Below are positions 2,790-52,158 of a DNA stretch of 64,000 nucleotides, one piece after another. Source of the DNA: Synechococcus sp. WH 8109 (GTDB lineage: Bacteria; Cyanobacteriota; Cyanobacteriia; PCC-6307; Cyanobiaceae). Every line of letters starts with the position of its first letter. The first letter of the stretch is position 1. The notes beneath the pieces were generated by a model. The model saw nothing but the letters and a program-made list of their open reading frames with translations. It did no database searches and had not been told where the DNA came from. The DNA lies in assembly GCF_000161795.2 (NCBI RefSeq), contig NZ_CP006882.1, positions 434,001-498,000 of the forward strand, read 5' to 3'. The position numbers and the translations under genes are program-made.

Positions 2790-3602
2790 TCAGAAAATCC
2801 GGGTTTGCATCAGCTTGCGCATCCTGGCGCGGAGGCCGCGGCGGGCCTGGGAGGGGTCCATCAGAGGAATGTCTTCACCCTGAAGCCGTTGAGCGATGTT
2901 GCCGTAGGCCTGGGCCGCTGGGGACGACGAATCACTCAGGGTCAAGGGTTCACCGCGGTTGGTGCTCACGATCACCTGTTCGTCTTCAAAAACAAGACCC
3001 AGAAGAGGTAACGCCAGGATGTCGGTGACGTCATCCACCGAAAGCATTTCCTGGTTCGACATCATCTTCGGCCGCACCCTGTTGAGCACGAGCTGCACCG
3101 GCTGCACGCCCTGGGTGTTCAGAAGCCCGATCACTCGATCAGCGTCCCGCACAGCGGCCACTTCCGGGGTGGTGATCACCACAGCTTCTCGAGCTGCGGC
3201 CGCGGCATTTTTGAATCCGTCTTCGATGCCTGCCGGGCAGTCGATCAACACGTAATCGAACTGGCGTTCCAACAGAGCAACGATGGCCTGCATGTCCTTG
3301 GGCTTGAGCCACTCGAGCATCCGTGGGTTGCCCGCAGGGAGCAGGGCCAGATTGGGCTCCTGCTTGTGCTTCACCAGGGCTTGCTCCAGCCGGCAGGTCT
3401 CGGCTAGCACCTCCTGAGCGGTGTAGACGATGCGATTTTCCAGGCCCAAGAGCAGATCAAGGTTCCTCAGGCCGAAGTCCGCGTCCAGAACCACGGTCTT
3501 GGCACCTTGGCGGGCAAGGGCGATCCCAAGGTTCGCCGTGGTCGTTGTTTTTCCGACACCGCCCTTGCCAGAACAGATGAGGATGGTTCGGGTCGTCGAC
3601 AC
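2790..3602 (-). CDS. minD: septum site-determining ATPase MinD
   Basis: 270-residue ParA/MinD-type ATPase that recruits MinC to the membrane. It shows the deviant Walker A motif [17 protein letters not shown] (residues 10-26), switch I around [14 protein letters not shown], and Walker [11 protein letters not shown]. The extreme C-terminus ([15 protein letters not shown]) is the amphipathic membrane-targeting helix. The length is normal for the family. It lies between minC and minE. Confidence 0.97.
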
Positions 3603-10310: not shown

Positions 10311-11797
<1,487 letters not shown>

Positions 11798-20386: not shown

Positions 20387-20431
20387 CACCAGATCTTGTG
20401 CTCGATAATGTGAAGCCTCCACATCTGGTGT
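20386..20431. repeat. inverted repeat at the recQ start
   Basis: Perfect 9-bp arms ACACCAGAT (20386-20394) and ATCTGGTGT (20423-20431) with a 28-base loop. It starts at the last base of the stop codon of the preceding gene and ends just before the recQ reading frame becomes conserved. It could be a transcript-stability or translation-control hairpin, or an operator. Confidence 0.55.
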
Positions 20432-46993: not shown

Positions 46994-47090
46994 TGGACAC
47001 ACAGCGCAAACTTCCTTTACAATCCCGATCAGGCAGGGCTCTCCTGCCCTTCCTTAAACCGTTCCTTCGGGAACATTTCTTTCCGTTCTC
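46994..47090 (+). promoter_or_regulatory. psbA promoter and structured leader
   Basis: TGGACA (46994-46999), an 18-base spacer and TACAAT (47018-47023) form a good sigma-70-type promoter. The leader holds two hairpins: GGCAGG/CCTGCC near 47032-47048 and GTTCC-TTCG-GGAAC at 47061-47074, the latter capped by a UUCG tetraloop. The bases before the ATG are pyrimidine-rich (TTTCTTTCCGTTCTC), with no Shine-Dalgarno sequence. Leader structure in psbA mRNAs is known to affect stability and translation. Confidence 0.65.
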
Positions 47091-48170
47091 ATGACCACCA
47101 CCCTCCAGCAGCGCTCCGGCGCTTCCAGCTGGCAGGCCTTCTGTGAGTGGGTCACCTCCACCAACAACCGTCTCTATGTCGGTTGGTTCGGTGTGCTGAT
47201 GATCCCCACACTGCTGGCTGCCACCATCTGCTTCGTCATCGCTTTCGTCGCCGCTCCCCCGGTCGACATCGATGGCATCCGCGAGCCCGTCGCTGGCTCC
47301 CTGATCTACGGCAACAACATCATCTCTGGTGCTGTTGTTCCTTCCAGCAACGCCATCGGCCTGCACTTCTACCCCATCTGGGAAGCTGCTTCCCTCGATG
47401 AGTGGCTGTACAACGGCGGCCCCTTCCAGCTGGTTGTTTTCCACTTCCTCATCGGCATCTACGCCTACATGGGTCGTGAGTGGGAACTTTCCTACCGCCT
47501 GGGCATGCGCCCCTGGATCTGCGTTGCCTACAGCGCACCTGTCGCTGCAGCTTCTGCTGTCTTCCTGGTTTACCCCTTCGGTCAGGGTTCCTTCTCTGAC
47601 GCAATGCCCCTGGGCATCTCTGGCACCTTCAACTACATGTTGGTGTTCCAGGCCGAGCACAACATCCTGATGCACCCCTTCCACATGCTGGGCGTCGCAG
47701 GTGTTTTCGGCGGCAGCCTGTTCTCCGCCATGCACGGCTCCCTGGTGACCTCCTCCCTGGTGCGTGAAACCACCGAGAGCGAGTCCCAGAACTACGGCTA
47801 CAAGTTCGGCCAAGAGGAAGAGACCTACAACATCGTGGCTGCCCACGGTTACTTCGGTCGCCTGATCTTCCAATACGCCTCCTTCAACAACAGCCGTAGC
47901 CTTCACTTCTTCCTGGCTGCTTGGCCTGTTGTCGGCATCTGGTTCACCGCCCTCGGCGTGTCAACCATGGCCTTCAACCTGAACGGCTTCAACTTCAACC
48001 AGTCCATCCTTGATGGTCAGGGCCGCGTCCTGAACACCTGGGCTGATGTGCTGAACCGTGCCGGCCTCGGCATGGAAGTGATGCACGAGCGCAACGCTCA
48101 CAACTTCCCCCTCGACCTGGCTGCTGCTGAGTCCACTCCTGTGGCTCTGCAGGCTCCTGCCATCGGTTGA
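47091..48170 (+). CDS. psbA: photosystem II D1 protein, D1:2 (Glu130) form
   Basis: 359-residue reaction-centre protein of photosystem II with five membrane helices, binding P680 chlorophylls, pheophytin, QB and the Mn cluster. Residue 130 is glutamate (YMGREWELS), the marker of the high-light D1:2 isoform; D1:1 forms have Gln. The C-terminus HNFPLDLA (ending Ala344) is followed by a 15-residue extension, [15 protein letters not shown], that must be removed by CtpA. Marine Synechococcus carry several psbA copies; only one is in this window. Confidence 0.98.
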
Positions 48171-50283: not shown

Positions 50284-50307
50284 TAAAAAACCTCCGTTGA
50301 ACGGAGG
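50284..50307 (-). terminator. minus-strand terminator
   Basis: On the minus strand CCTCCGTT-CAACGGAGG is followed by TTTTTT. No protein gene lies directly upstream on this strand, so it may end a transcript starting within 50310-50600, possibly antisense to the candidate RNA there. Confidence 0.6.
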
Positions 50308-50320
50308 AATAAGCCAAGTA

Positions 50321-50540
50321 ATCCCCATCACCCGGCTTTTCAATAAGTGTAGTGCTTCTCGTCAAGTTTGTGCAGCTGATCCACCAGATGTGGTGGATTG
50401 AATTTCACAAAACACCGCTTGGCTGCAGCTTTTCCACAGGAAGGTGGAAAACTTTGGCAGTCCGTGTTGTCGCCGTTTCTTCAAAAGGCCTGCAATCACT
50501 GGATCGTTCGGGTAAGCTGTGGATATCCCCATCACCCGGC
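50321..50540. repeat. 16-bp direct repeat
   Basis: ATCCCCATCACCCGGC occurs at 50321-50336 and again at 50525-50540, 204 bases apart, framing most of the hairpin-rich interval. The second copy runs into the stem of a terminator hairpin. Confidence 0.6.
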
Positions 50541-50562
50541 CGCCCATTTGTGGCGGCTTTTT
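50360..50562 (+). ncRNA. candidate small RNA with three hairpins and terminator
   Basis: The interval 50048-50603 has no supported gene, but this part is full of structure. ATCCACC/GGTGGAT (50379-50398) and TTTTCCAC-AGGAAG-GTGGAAAA (50430-50451) are perfect stems. GCCGCC-CATTTGT-GGCGGC followed by TTTTT (50539-50562) is a good rho-independent terminator. Since no upstream + strand gene explains the terminator, a small RNA transcript is the simplest reading. It could also be a leader attenuator of the gene at 50604. The 5' end is a guess. Confidence 0.5.
50539..50562 (+). terminator. terminator of the candidate RNA or attenuator
   Basis: Stem GCCGCC (50539-50544) with GGCGGC (50552-50557), seven-base loop, then five T residues. 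It lies 41 bases before the start of the next + strand gene. Confidence 0.75.
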
Positions 50563-50603
50563 GTGCCTGGGCTGCCAGTGTGGACCCGTATTCCACAAGG
50601 TCT

Positions 50604-50897
50604 ATGTCGGTGAACCGAGAACAGGCCAGGGACGCACTGGCGACACTTCTCGAGGTTTTCGCGGGGCCGAACTACTCGGGCGCATTGCGTGATGGTGATC
50701 TCACCACCCGCTTGGAGCGATGCACGAGCTGGGTGAAGGCTGAAGCCTCTGAGGCGGCATCTCTGATCGAATCATGCGTCCCCCATGGCAAGCCGATGCT
50801 TGCTCAAGCTCAGCAACGCCTGGCTGTTCTGGAATCGTTGAAGACGTTGCAGGCTGTTGCCGTCAACCATTTCGGCCCCCTCGACGATCCCAGCTAA
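50604..50897 (+). CDS. small unknown helical protein, 97 aa
   Basis: Product starts MSVNREQARDALATLLEVFAG and is soluble and mostly helical by composition, with two cysteines. The ATG at 50604 was chosen because the upstream open frame (to 50352) runs through the hairpins and terminator. Conserved-looking but not recognised. Confidence 0.65.
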   Translation: MSVNREQARDALATLLEVFAGPNYSGALRDGDLTTRLERCTSWVKAEASEAASLIESCVPHGKPMLAQAQQRLAVLESLKTLQAVAVNHFGPLDDPS

Positions 50898-51856: not shown

Positions 51857-51872
51857 TGTAGCAACTGCTACA
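51857..51872. promoter_or_regulatory. candidate NtcA box
   Basis: TGTAGCA-AC-TGCTACA is a perfect inverted repeat and fits the NtcA consensus GTA-N8-TAC (51858-51871). A second hairpin, CTTCGC/GCGAAG, lies at 51881-51898. The site is 80 bases upstream of the small gene at 51952 and 61 bases after the preceding gene. A canonical -10 box about 22 bases further is not obvious, which lowers confidence. Confidence 0.45.
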
Positions 51873-51951
51873 AACGTTCACTTCGCTACATGGCGAAGCG
51901 CAGTTCGACTCAGGGCATGGAACGGGGCCTGAGCTTTCTACGAGGAACACC

Positions 51952-52158
51952 ATGAATGCTCTTCAGCTTCTGAAGGAGCGTGAGCTGCGCGTGCAGCTCC
52001 GCAACAGCTCCAAAAAGGTCCTGGCTCGCGGATCTGAATCCGGCGACTACACCTCTGCACATCTCTCTCCCGTCAAGCTGGCGAAAGAGAAGGTTGCTCC
52101 CACTCAGTTGAAATACCGAGGAGTGACCTACGAGGCAATGCGTGCCAATTGGCTCTGA
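51952..52158 (+). CDS. DUF4278-like small protein, 68 aa
   Basis: Basic 68-residue protein ending in LKYRGVTYEAMRANWL. The Y-R-G-V-x-Y motif is the mark of the cyanobacterial DUF4278 family. Its length suits a single unit, and the function is unknown. It is followed by a strong terminator, so it is a monocistronic gene, and lies downstream of a candidate NtcA site. Confidence 0.75.
   Translation: MNALQLLKERELRVQLRNSSKKVLARGSESGDYTSAHLSPVKLAKEKVAPTQLKYRGVTYEAMRANWL

Follow-up and report, generated by a model that had tools for sequence, protein, structure and literature searches.

What does the stretch between the 92-aa gene at 50047-49769 (minus strand) and the 97-aa gene at 50604-50897 (plus strand) encode, a pair of small RNAs or a leader for the gene at 50604? 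The stretch, whose two neighbors belong to no known family, lies within a window of 64,000 nt (the whole stretch of DNA that was analyzed) from the genome of a marine Synechococcus (G000, 2,111,515 bp). A sequence-only reading had described outward terminators, perfect hairpins and a 16-bp repeat in the absence of a protein gene, and had offered both answers. A terminator scan located the outward terminators at 50307-50291 on the minus strand and 50538-50558 on the plus strand, and the perfect hairpins correspond to two palindromes with perfect arms at 50379-50398 and 50430-50451. The repeat (ATCCCCATCACCCGGC, 16 nt) is exact and present in two copies, at 50321-50336 and 50525-50540, and a search for exact 15-mers within the window returned two matches in total, both in these copies. 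It had been taken for a direct repeat; since the terminators face outwards, the copies are read from opposite strands, and what was seen is really antisense complementarity of 16 nt between two divergent RNAs, a minus-strand RNA (A) that holds GCCGGGUGAUGGGGAU and a plus-strand RNA (B) that holds AUCCCCAUCACCCGGC. Long ORFs across the region, such as a 181-aa GTG ORF from 50352, are 5′ extensions of the conserved 50604 gene, and no conserved ORF appears to lie wholly inside the region, in agreement with the earlier description.

Five terminator-like sites were called in 2 kb compared with 2.2 ± 1.4 in shuffled sequences, so that the terminators on their own are weak evidence. RNA folding on the minus strand far exceeds that of shuffles (z = -3.2), and a 131-nt stretch of the plus strand displays no folding excess over shuffles (z = -1.0). 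The decisive support comes not from folding within a single genome but from the relatives, which have kept the spacing along with the cores, the promoter-like boxes and the terminators. No family of the Rfam 15 covariance models scored above the gathering cut-off at the locus, and a Flavi_CRE match (E = 1.9, under the gathering score) was rejected as chance; at the paralogous loci, Rfam matches were restricted to neighboring Cyano-1 and Cyano-2 RNAs and a tRNA. Elsewhere in the window, Rfam identified a Glutamine-II riboswitch aptamer (51872-51933) upstream of a 68-aa gene at 51952 and a PhotoRC-I RNA (47031-47074) just 5′ of a psbA-like gene at 47091.

RNA A is a predicted RNA of ~55 nt (50284-50339, minus strand; 5′-AAAGCCGGGUGAUGGGGAUUACUUGGCUUAUUCCUCCGUUCAACGGAGGUUUUUU) for which both a -10-like box and the terminator are conserved in relatives. 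Its 5′ end was placed from the box, TACACT (50346-50351, minus strand), a putative element recognized by sequence comparison; divergent loci carry TATCTT, TATTTT or TACAAT at the corresponding distance. The terminator (50285-50307, minus strand) consists of a 7-bp stem (50307-50291) followed by TTTTTT, and in relatives (e.g., L014, L016 and L020) the stem is retained with a different stem sequence. RNA folding and comparison of the A RNAs define a hairpin (50311-50338, minus strand) with a 12-bp stem (AAGCCGGGUGAU / AUUACUUGGCUU) and a GGGG tetraloop, and A has a core, GGUGAUGGGGAU (50321-50332, minus strand), that recurs within genomes. A total of 83 distinct A/B pairs were gathered from Synechococcus and Prochlorococcus genomes, a collection that required an 8-nt core and T-runs and in which core identity is therefore partly a matter of construction. 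The U-GGGG-A closing pair is retained in 81 of the 83 A RNAs, and 82.3% of the cells in the A alignment are paired compared with at most 51% for a slid register. The RNAs fold at -12.1 kcal/mol with their own 3′ arms and at -10.6 kcal/mol with arms swapped between loci (swap sd 0.18, kinship uncorrected). Covariation, proposed earlier as a check, was found in the hairpin, where 5 of 11 pairs are changed on both sides and the double changes exceed those in all 500 shuffles. Judged by these alignments, the A hairpin is maintained in the family. The core itself is invariant, so covariation is unusable as proof of pairing between A and B.

RNA B is a predicted RNA of ~38 nt (50525-50562, plus strand; 5′-AUCCCCAUCACCCGG and then the terminator hairpin), delimited by conservation and promoter-like boxes, the latter being used to place its 5′ end. 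These putative boxes, recognized by sequence comparison, are CTGCAA (50490-50495) and TAAGCT (50513-50518) on the plus strand, separated by 17 bp; a consensus promoter scan made no call at them, and equivalents are TTGCAG-17-TAAGCT in L017 and TTGATT-17-TAGAAA in the g31 loci. B consists of an unstructured AUCCCCAUCACC at the 5′ end with the terminator immediately 3′, a 7-bp stem (50538-50558) followed by TTTTT (50538-50562, plus strand). The TGTGGATATCCCCATCAC of B is retained throughout genus g1, and in L017-L020 the terminator is swapped for another stem (CCAGCA...TGCTGG). The 16-nt seed of B (50525-50540, plus strand) is a perfect complement of A and is also complementary to the start of a sigma factor mRNA. 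The interaction of the seed with A was calculated at -35.5 kcal/mol; A exposes GGUGAUGGGG within and beside its hairpin and B bears the complementary CCCCAUCACC in its unpaired 5′ end.

BLAST detected the locus in 19 of 34 genomes of the genus, in some by the B region alone. The distance between the core starts is 204 bp in 13 out of 15 loci of the window type (203 bp in L009 and 206 bp in L015), including L014, L016 and L020, whose interiors are just 27-41% identical to the others. Four loci (L013 and L017-L019) contain a degraded A and retain B. Over all collected pairs the spacing ranges from 103 to 206 bp: divergent pairs in the genus of the window fall into classes of ~204, 175, 160, and 153 bp, and the spacing elsewhere is ~196 bp in g34, 111-114 bp in Prochlorococcus (g17) and ~103-171 bp in other genera. 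The earlier suggestion of a new small RNA pair is supported by these alignments, in which predicted divergent, separately terminated and mutually complementary RNAs recur across the family.

The window pair belongs to a multi-copy family. Core pattern searches in G000 returned 10 exact copies of the A core (GGUGAUGGGGAU / GGTGATGGGGAT), two of which are the window pair, compared with ~0.25 expected in random sequence. The other core loci comprise A RNAs at p734, p835 and p1300 with a partial copy at p1307, a B-like element with a nearby A-like hairpin at p271, a protein gene start at p2077 and a coding match at 182223; p734 and several more are solo A RNAs. Exact core copies number 3-11 in 18 of 19 well-covered genomes of the genus, with none for the reversed-pattern control. 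A two-core pattern search matched 39 out of 400 genomes of the family (part of them coding coincidences) compared with a control total of 1. Core matches with two mismatches outside the genus were set aside as probably chance for the most part, since the reversed control matched too. A covariance model built from 37 A sequences recovers the A RNA of the window (G000:C1:484285-484341, E = 4e-11) and, in a sample of 195 genomes of the class, matched 23, consisting of 22 Cyanobiaceae and a single marginal match outside the family (E = 0.0016). Most, not all, of the newly found A loci that were read have a B mate 111-176 bp away. Two low-GC picocyanobacteria, G084 (L306-L311) and G063 (L312-L315), contain four to six A/B pairs, which often lie in clusters spanning tens of kilobases, indicating that the copy number was expanded by lineage. 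Separately, L098 and L099 (G000:C1:1300339, minus strand, and 1307224, plus strand) share 191 identical bp in inverted orientation ~7 kb apart, an identity that begins at the base preceding the A core, at its first G run, and extends outwards. The arrangement resembles a partial duplication broken at the sRNA core and may be the trace of an integration site. The p1300 pair also lies within ~1.5 kb of the Cyano-1 and Cyano-2 matches (L098 1826-1890, minus strand, and 2827-3012, plus strand), forming a cluster of noncoding RNAs.

Two of the core matches connect the family to protein genes. The match at p2077 is the start of a gene for a group-2 sigma factor of 328 aa, which scores above the cut-off of TIGR02997 (cyanoRpoD subfamily). 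This start, AGGAGACCAGGGUGAUGGGGAUCCCUCUGG, folds into an A-like hairpin that takes in the Shine-Dalgarno sequence, the GUG/AUG start codon and the initial codons, and it has GGGUGAUGGGGAU in common with A. The same 24-27 nt are preserved in g1, g34, g17, g58, and g39, and GGG ATC CCT CTG is retained even in AT-rich Prochlorococcus, where GGG and CTG codons are unexpected. The unpaired, conserved seed of B contains a perfect 13-nt complement of the sigma start, with a calculated interaction of -28.8 kcal/mol compared with a median of -14.8 kcal/mol for 4000 background stretches; 11 of the 4000 reach -28.8 kcal/mol or lower, and the best of these include the locus itself. The energy gained by co-folding B with the sigma start is equaled or bettered by 14 of 600 random stretches. 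The second connection, p271, is found at L092 1501-1620 (G000:C1:271462-271593), where a B-like element and terminator follow the upstream gene and an A-like hairpin lies 120 bp past the B-like element on the same strand, in the leader of a gene for a DUF565 membrane protein. This arrangement is conserved in several genomes of the genus, and in both g1 and g34 the 5′ leader of the DUF565 mRNA carries the A-like hairpin.

The distribution of the sigma motif was compared with that of the pairs. G029, the sole g1 genome checked in which no pair was detected, has an altered sigma start (GGUGAUAGAG / GGUGAUAGAGAUCC), a single case that is suggestive of linked loss at the sequence level. Some freshwater-type genera likewise display altered sigma starts and no or weak A matches. 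G037 contains the sigma motif and has no A match, and its motif may have a role of its own as a start-codon hairpin or a protein site. With the core nearly invariant, no compensatory changes are visible between B and either the sigma mRNA or A; the flanking variants (C/U at the 11th position of the B seed, A/G in A) show no co-variation at individual loci.

Given this anatomy, conservation, complementarity and phylogenetic spread, we infer that A and B are both transcribed, which is very probable, and that they pair in the cell, which is probable. The direction of regulation is a step further: the chances that B acts on the sigma mRNA are placed at about even, and the case for A as a decoy of B is finely balanced. 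The preferred reading as a whole, in which the locus encodes two very short, divergent and separately terminated regulatory RNAs, an antisense sRNA B and decoys A, is given one chance in two. According to this model, B would be a trans-acting antisense RNA whose seed covers the ribosome-binding and start-codon region of the group-2 sigma mRNA, and given this complementarity its binding should block translation. The seed is also complementary to the hairpin in the 5′ UTR of the DUF565 gene. The A RNAs would mimic the sigma start and titrate B as sponges, so that the ratio of A to B produced from several differently regulated loci could set the output of the sigma factor. Sponge circuits are a feature of enterobacteria (ChiX/chb, GcvB/SroC), where a base-pairing sRNA is titrated by a decoy resembling its target; those decoys are usually unlinked fragments of mRNAs or tRNAs, whereas here dedicated decoy genes would adjoin the sRNA genes and occur in paralogous copies.

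The palindromes between the A and B genes would be candidate operators in the model. The first, ATCCACCAGATGTGGTGGAT (50379-50398, perfect arms ATCCACCA-GATG-TGGTGGAT), lies ~40-59 bp upstream of A, and CACYANATNTRGTG with at most one mismatch was found three times in 64 kb compared with 0.24 expected. The second, TTTTCCACAGGAAGGTGGAAAA (50430-50451, perfect arms TTTTCCAC-AGGAAG-GTGGAAAA), was read directly from the sequence as a candidate operator, and its TCCACAG...GTGGA is preserved in relatives. In several locus classes the interval between A and B is enriched in palindromes of the first kind, and other classes lack them; palindromes between A and B occur in the 204-bp class and in Prochlorococcus, not in all classes. 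Two sequences close to such a palindrome (CACCAGATCTTGTG and CTCCACATCTGGTG) are located 30 bp apart at 20387-20430 of the window, possibly marking another gene that shares the regulator. An oriC or DnaA cluster at the locus was considered and rejected: dnaA is far off, and DnaA-box-like motifs are present but not general.

These palindromes also bear on an improbable alternative, in which the conserved elements act at the DNA level, as operators or DnaA-box-like sites (TTTTCCACA/TTATCCACA) within a control region that works in both directions, the RNAs being by-products. The enrichment of palindromes between A and B, the exact 204-bp spacing and the presence of TTATCCACA-like motifs in many loci would suit such an arrangement, but the spacing depends on the lineage (103-206 bp) and several locus classes have no palindrome. 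The core, moreover, sits inside the RNAs and recurs in mRNAs, and terminators on both strands are retained despite differing in sequence while the hairpin is maintained. Even less probable is the attenuated leader offered earlier, according to which B and its terminator would control the 50604 gene and A would be incidental. The B terminator does end ~40 nt before the start codon of 50604, a gene in the same orientation, but most pair loci adjoin other genes: a 50604 homologue is confined to 11 of the pair loci collected, which belong to a single clade of the genus. In L014 and L016 the B terminator is flanked by a homologue of the 49769 gene that is oriented towards B, which leaves B with no gene to lead there; the leader reading is already largely refuted by this comparative anatomy of the sequences.

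The main rival to the model of an antisense B and a sponge A keeps the decoy and changes the reader: the hairpin with its GGGG loop would be bound, both at the sigma start and in the leader of the DUF565 mRNA, by an RNA-binding protein for which A would be the decoy, and B would silence A. It is unlikely, though well ahead of the other alternatives. A shares a hairpin, and not sequence alone, with the sigma start and the leader of the DUF565 gene, and G037 carries the motif without an A match, as such a protein would allow. Counted against it, we know of no protein that reads this hairpin, and the retention of B at loci with a degraded or missing A (L013, L017-L019) would be odd for a mere silencer of the adjacent A, a point limited by the other A loci that remain in these genomes. 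The outlasting of A by an antitoxin-like B would also fit a type I toxin-antitoxin system, with A as a mini-mRNA for a tiny peptide read from the core AUG (MGITWLIPPFNGGFFM in the window) and B as the antitoxin RNA. Divergent type I loci such as tisB/istR-1 and zorO/orzO encode small RNAs with ~16-20 nt of complementarity, the divergent layout and short trans complementarity seen here resemble them, and several g1 loci have the frame open. Conservation of the frame is lacking, however: it stops after four codons in L081 and crosses terminators of differing sequence, no hydrophobic segment is encoded, and a Shine-Dalgarno sequence is absent from A. Unlike the known loci, A/B has no conserved toxin ORF, and this alternative is highly unlikely.

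The nearest system to the proposed sRNA and decoy pair is Yfr1/Yfr10-Yfr2. Yfr1/Yfr10 and Yfr2-Yfr5 are multi-copy sRNA families of Prochlorococcus with short complementary motifs (PMC2518516, PMC6778093, PMC1242208), and binding of Yfr2 in vitro keeps Yfr1/Yfr10 off the mRNA target ppa (PMC6778093). In both systems the genes are often adjacent, one RNA is C-rich and single-stranded and the other has a 5′ hairpin, but the motifs differ (ACUCCUCACAC and GGAAACA / GUGUGUAGGAG in the Yfr families, CCCCAUCACC / GGUGAUGGGG in A/B). The unadecanucleotide ACUCCUCACAC of Yfr1/Yfr10 (PMC2518516) is absent from B, which carries AUCCCCAUCACC, and A, with its GGGG loop and ~55 nt, differs from Yfr2-Yfr5, which have a GGAAACA loop in the 5′ hairpin and 89-95 nt (PMC1242208). 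Yfr103, an RNA of marine picocyanobacteria that is multi-copy and has an imperfect palindrome 5′ of its start site, was rejected as the identity of A/B, since it is 290-328 nt long and unpaired and the A/B RNAs are ~40-70 nt (PMC5069720). Unlike Yfr1 and Yfr2, A and B are divergent, have a fixed short spacing and their own terminators, and share their core with the start of a sigma factor. The Prochlorococcus genome with a pair near 348.8-349.0 kb is taken here to be MED4. Yfr19, a candidate by strain distribution and rough position, was rejected as the Prochlorococcus pair, being located at 1086081-1086162. On the same assumption, the ncRNA tables of two surveys hold no entry at 348.8 kb (PMC1242208, PMC2518516). 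Single members may have been detected earlier; what appears to be new, as far as the sequences indicate, is the combination of a base-pairing sRNA and a dedicated decoy in divergent, repeated pairs.

Marine picocyanobacteria are the commonest photosynthetic cells of the ocean, and protein regulators are few in Prochlorococcus and marine Synechococcus, which raises the question of how their transcription is controlled. A paired sRNA family with a sigma-start core would, if true, be a direct link from RNA regulation to global transcription. The family extends to a phage: the cyanophage contig L389 (IMGVR_UViG_3300006565_001309), which bears host-like metabolic genes, contains a complete A/B pair at 10526-10730, which is 91% identical over 380 bp to a pair from Prochlorococcus G088. 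No record among the INPHARED phages is related to this pair, and the matches in other viral contigs are mostly chance, L504 and L505 looking like coding sequence. The copy suggests that the pair may be useful during infection. As a tentative extension of the model, rather less probable than the model itself, several divergent sRNA/decoy pairs with their own control regions would jointly set the translation of the group-2 sigma factor and the DUF565 protein, and a cyanophage would have captured one pair, retuning host transcription in infection. The ORFs of L389 resemble amt, pstS, heme oxygenase, plastoquinol terminal oxidase and genes of T4-like cyanophages, and its PHROG matches include the phage plastoquinol terminal oxidase.
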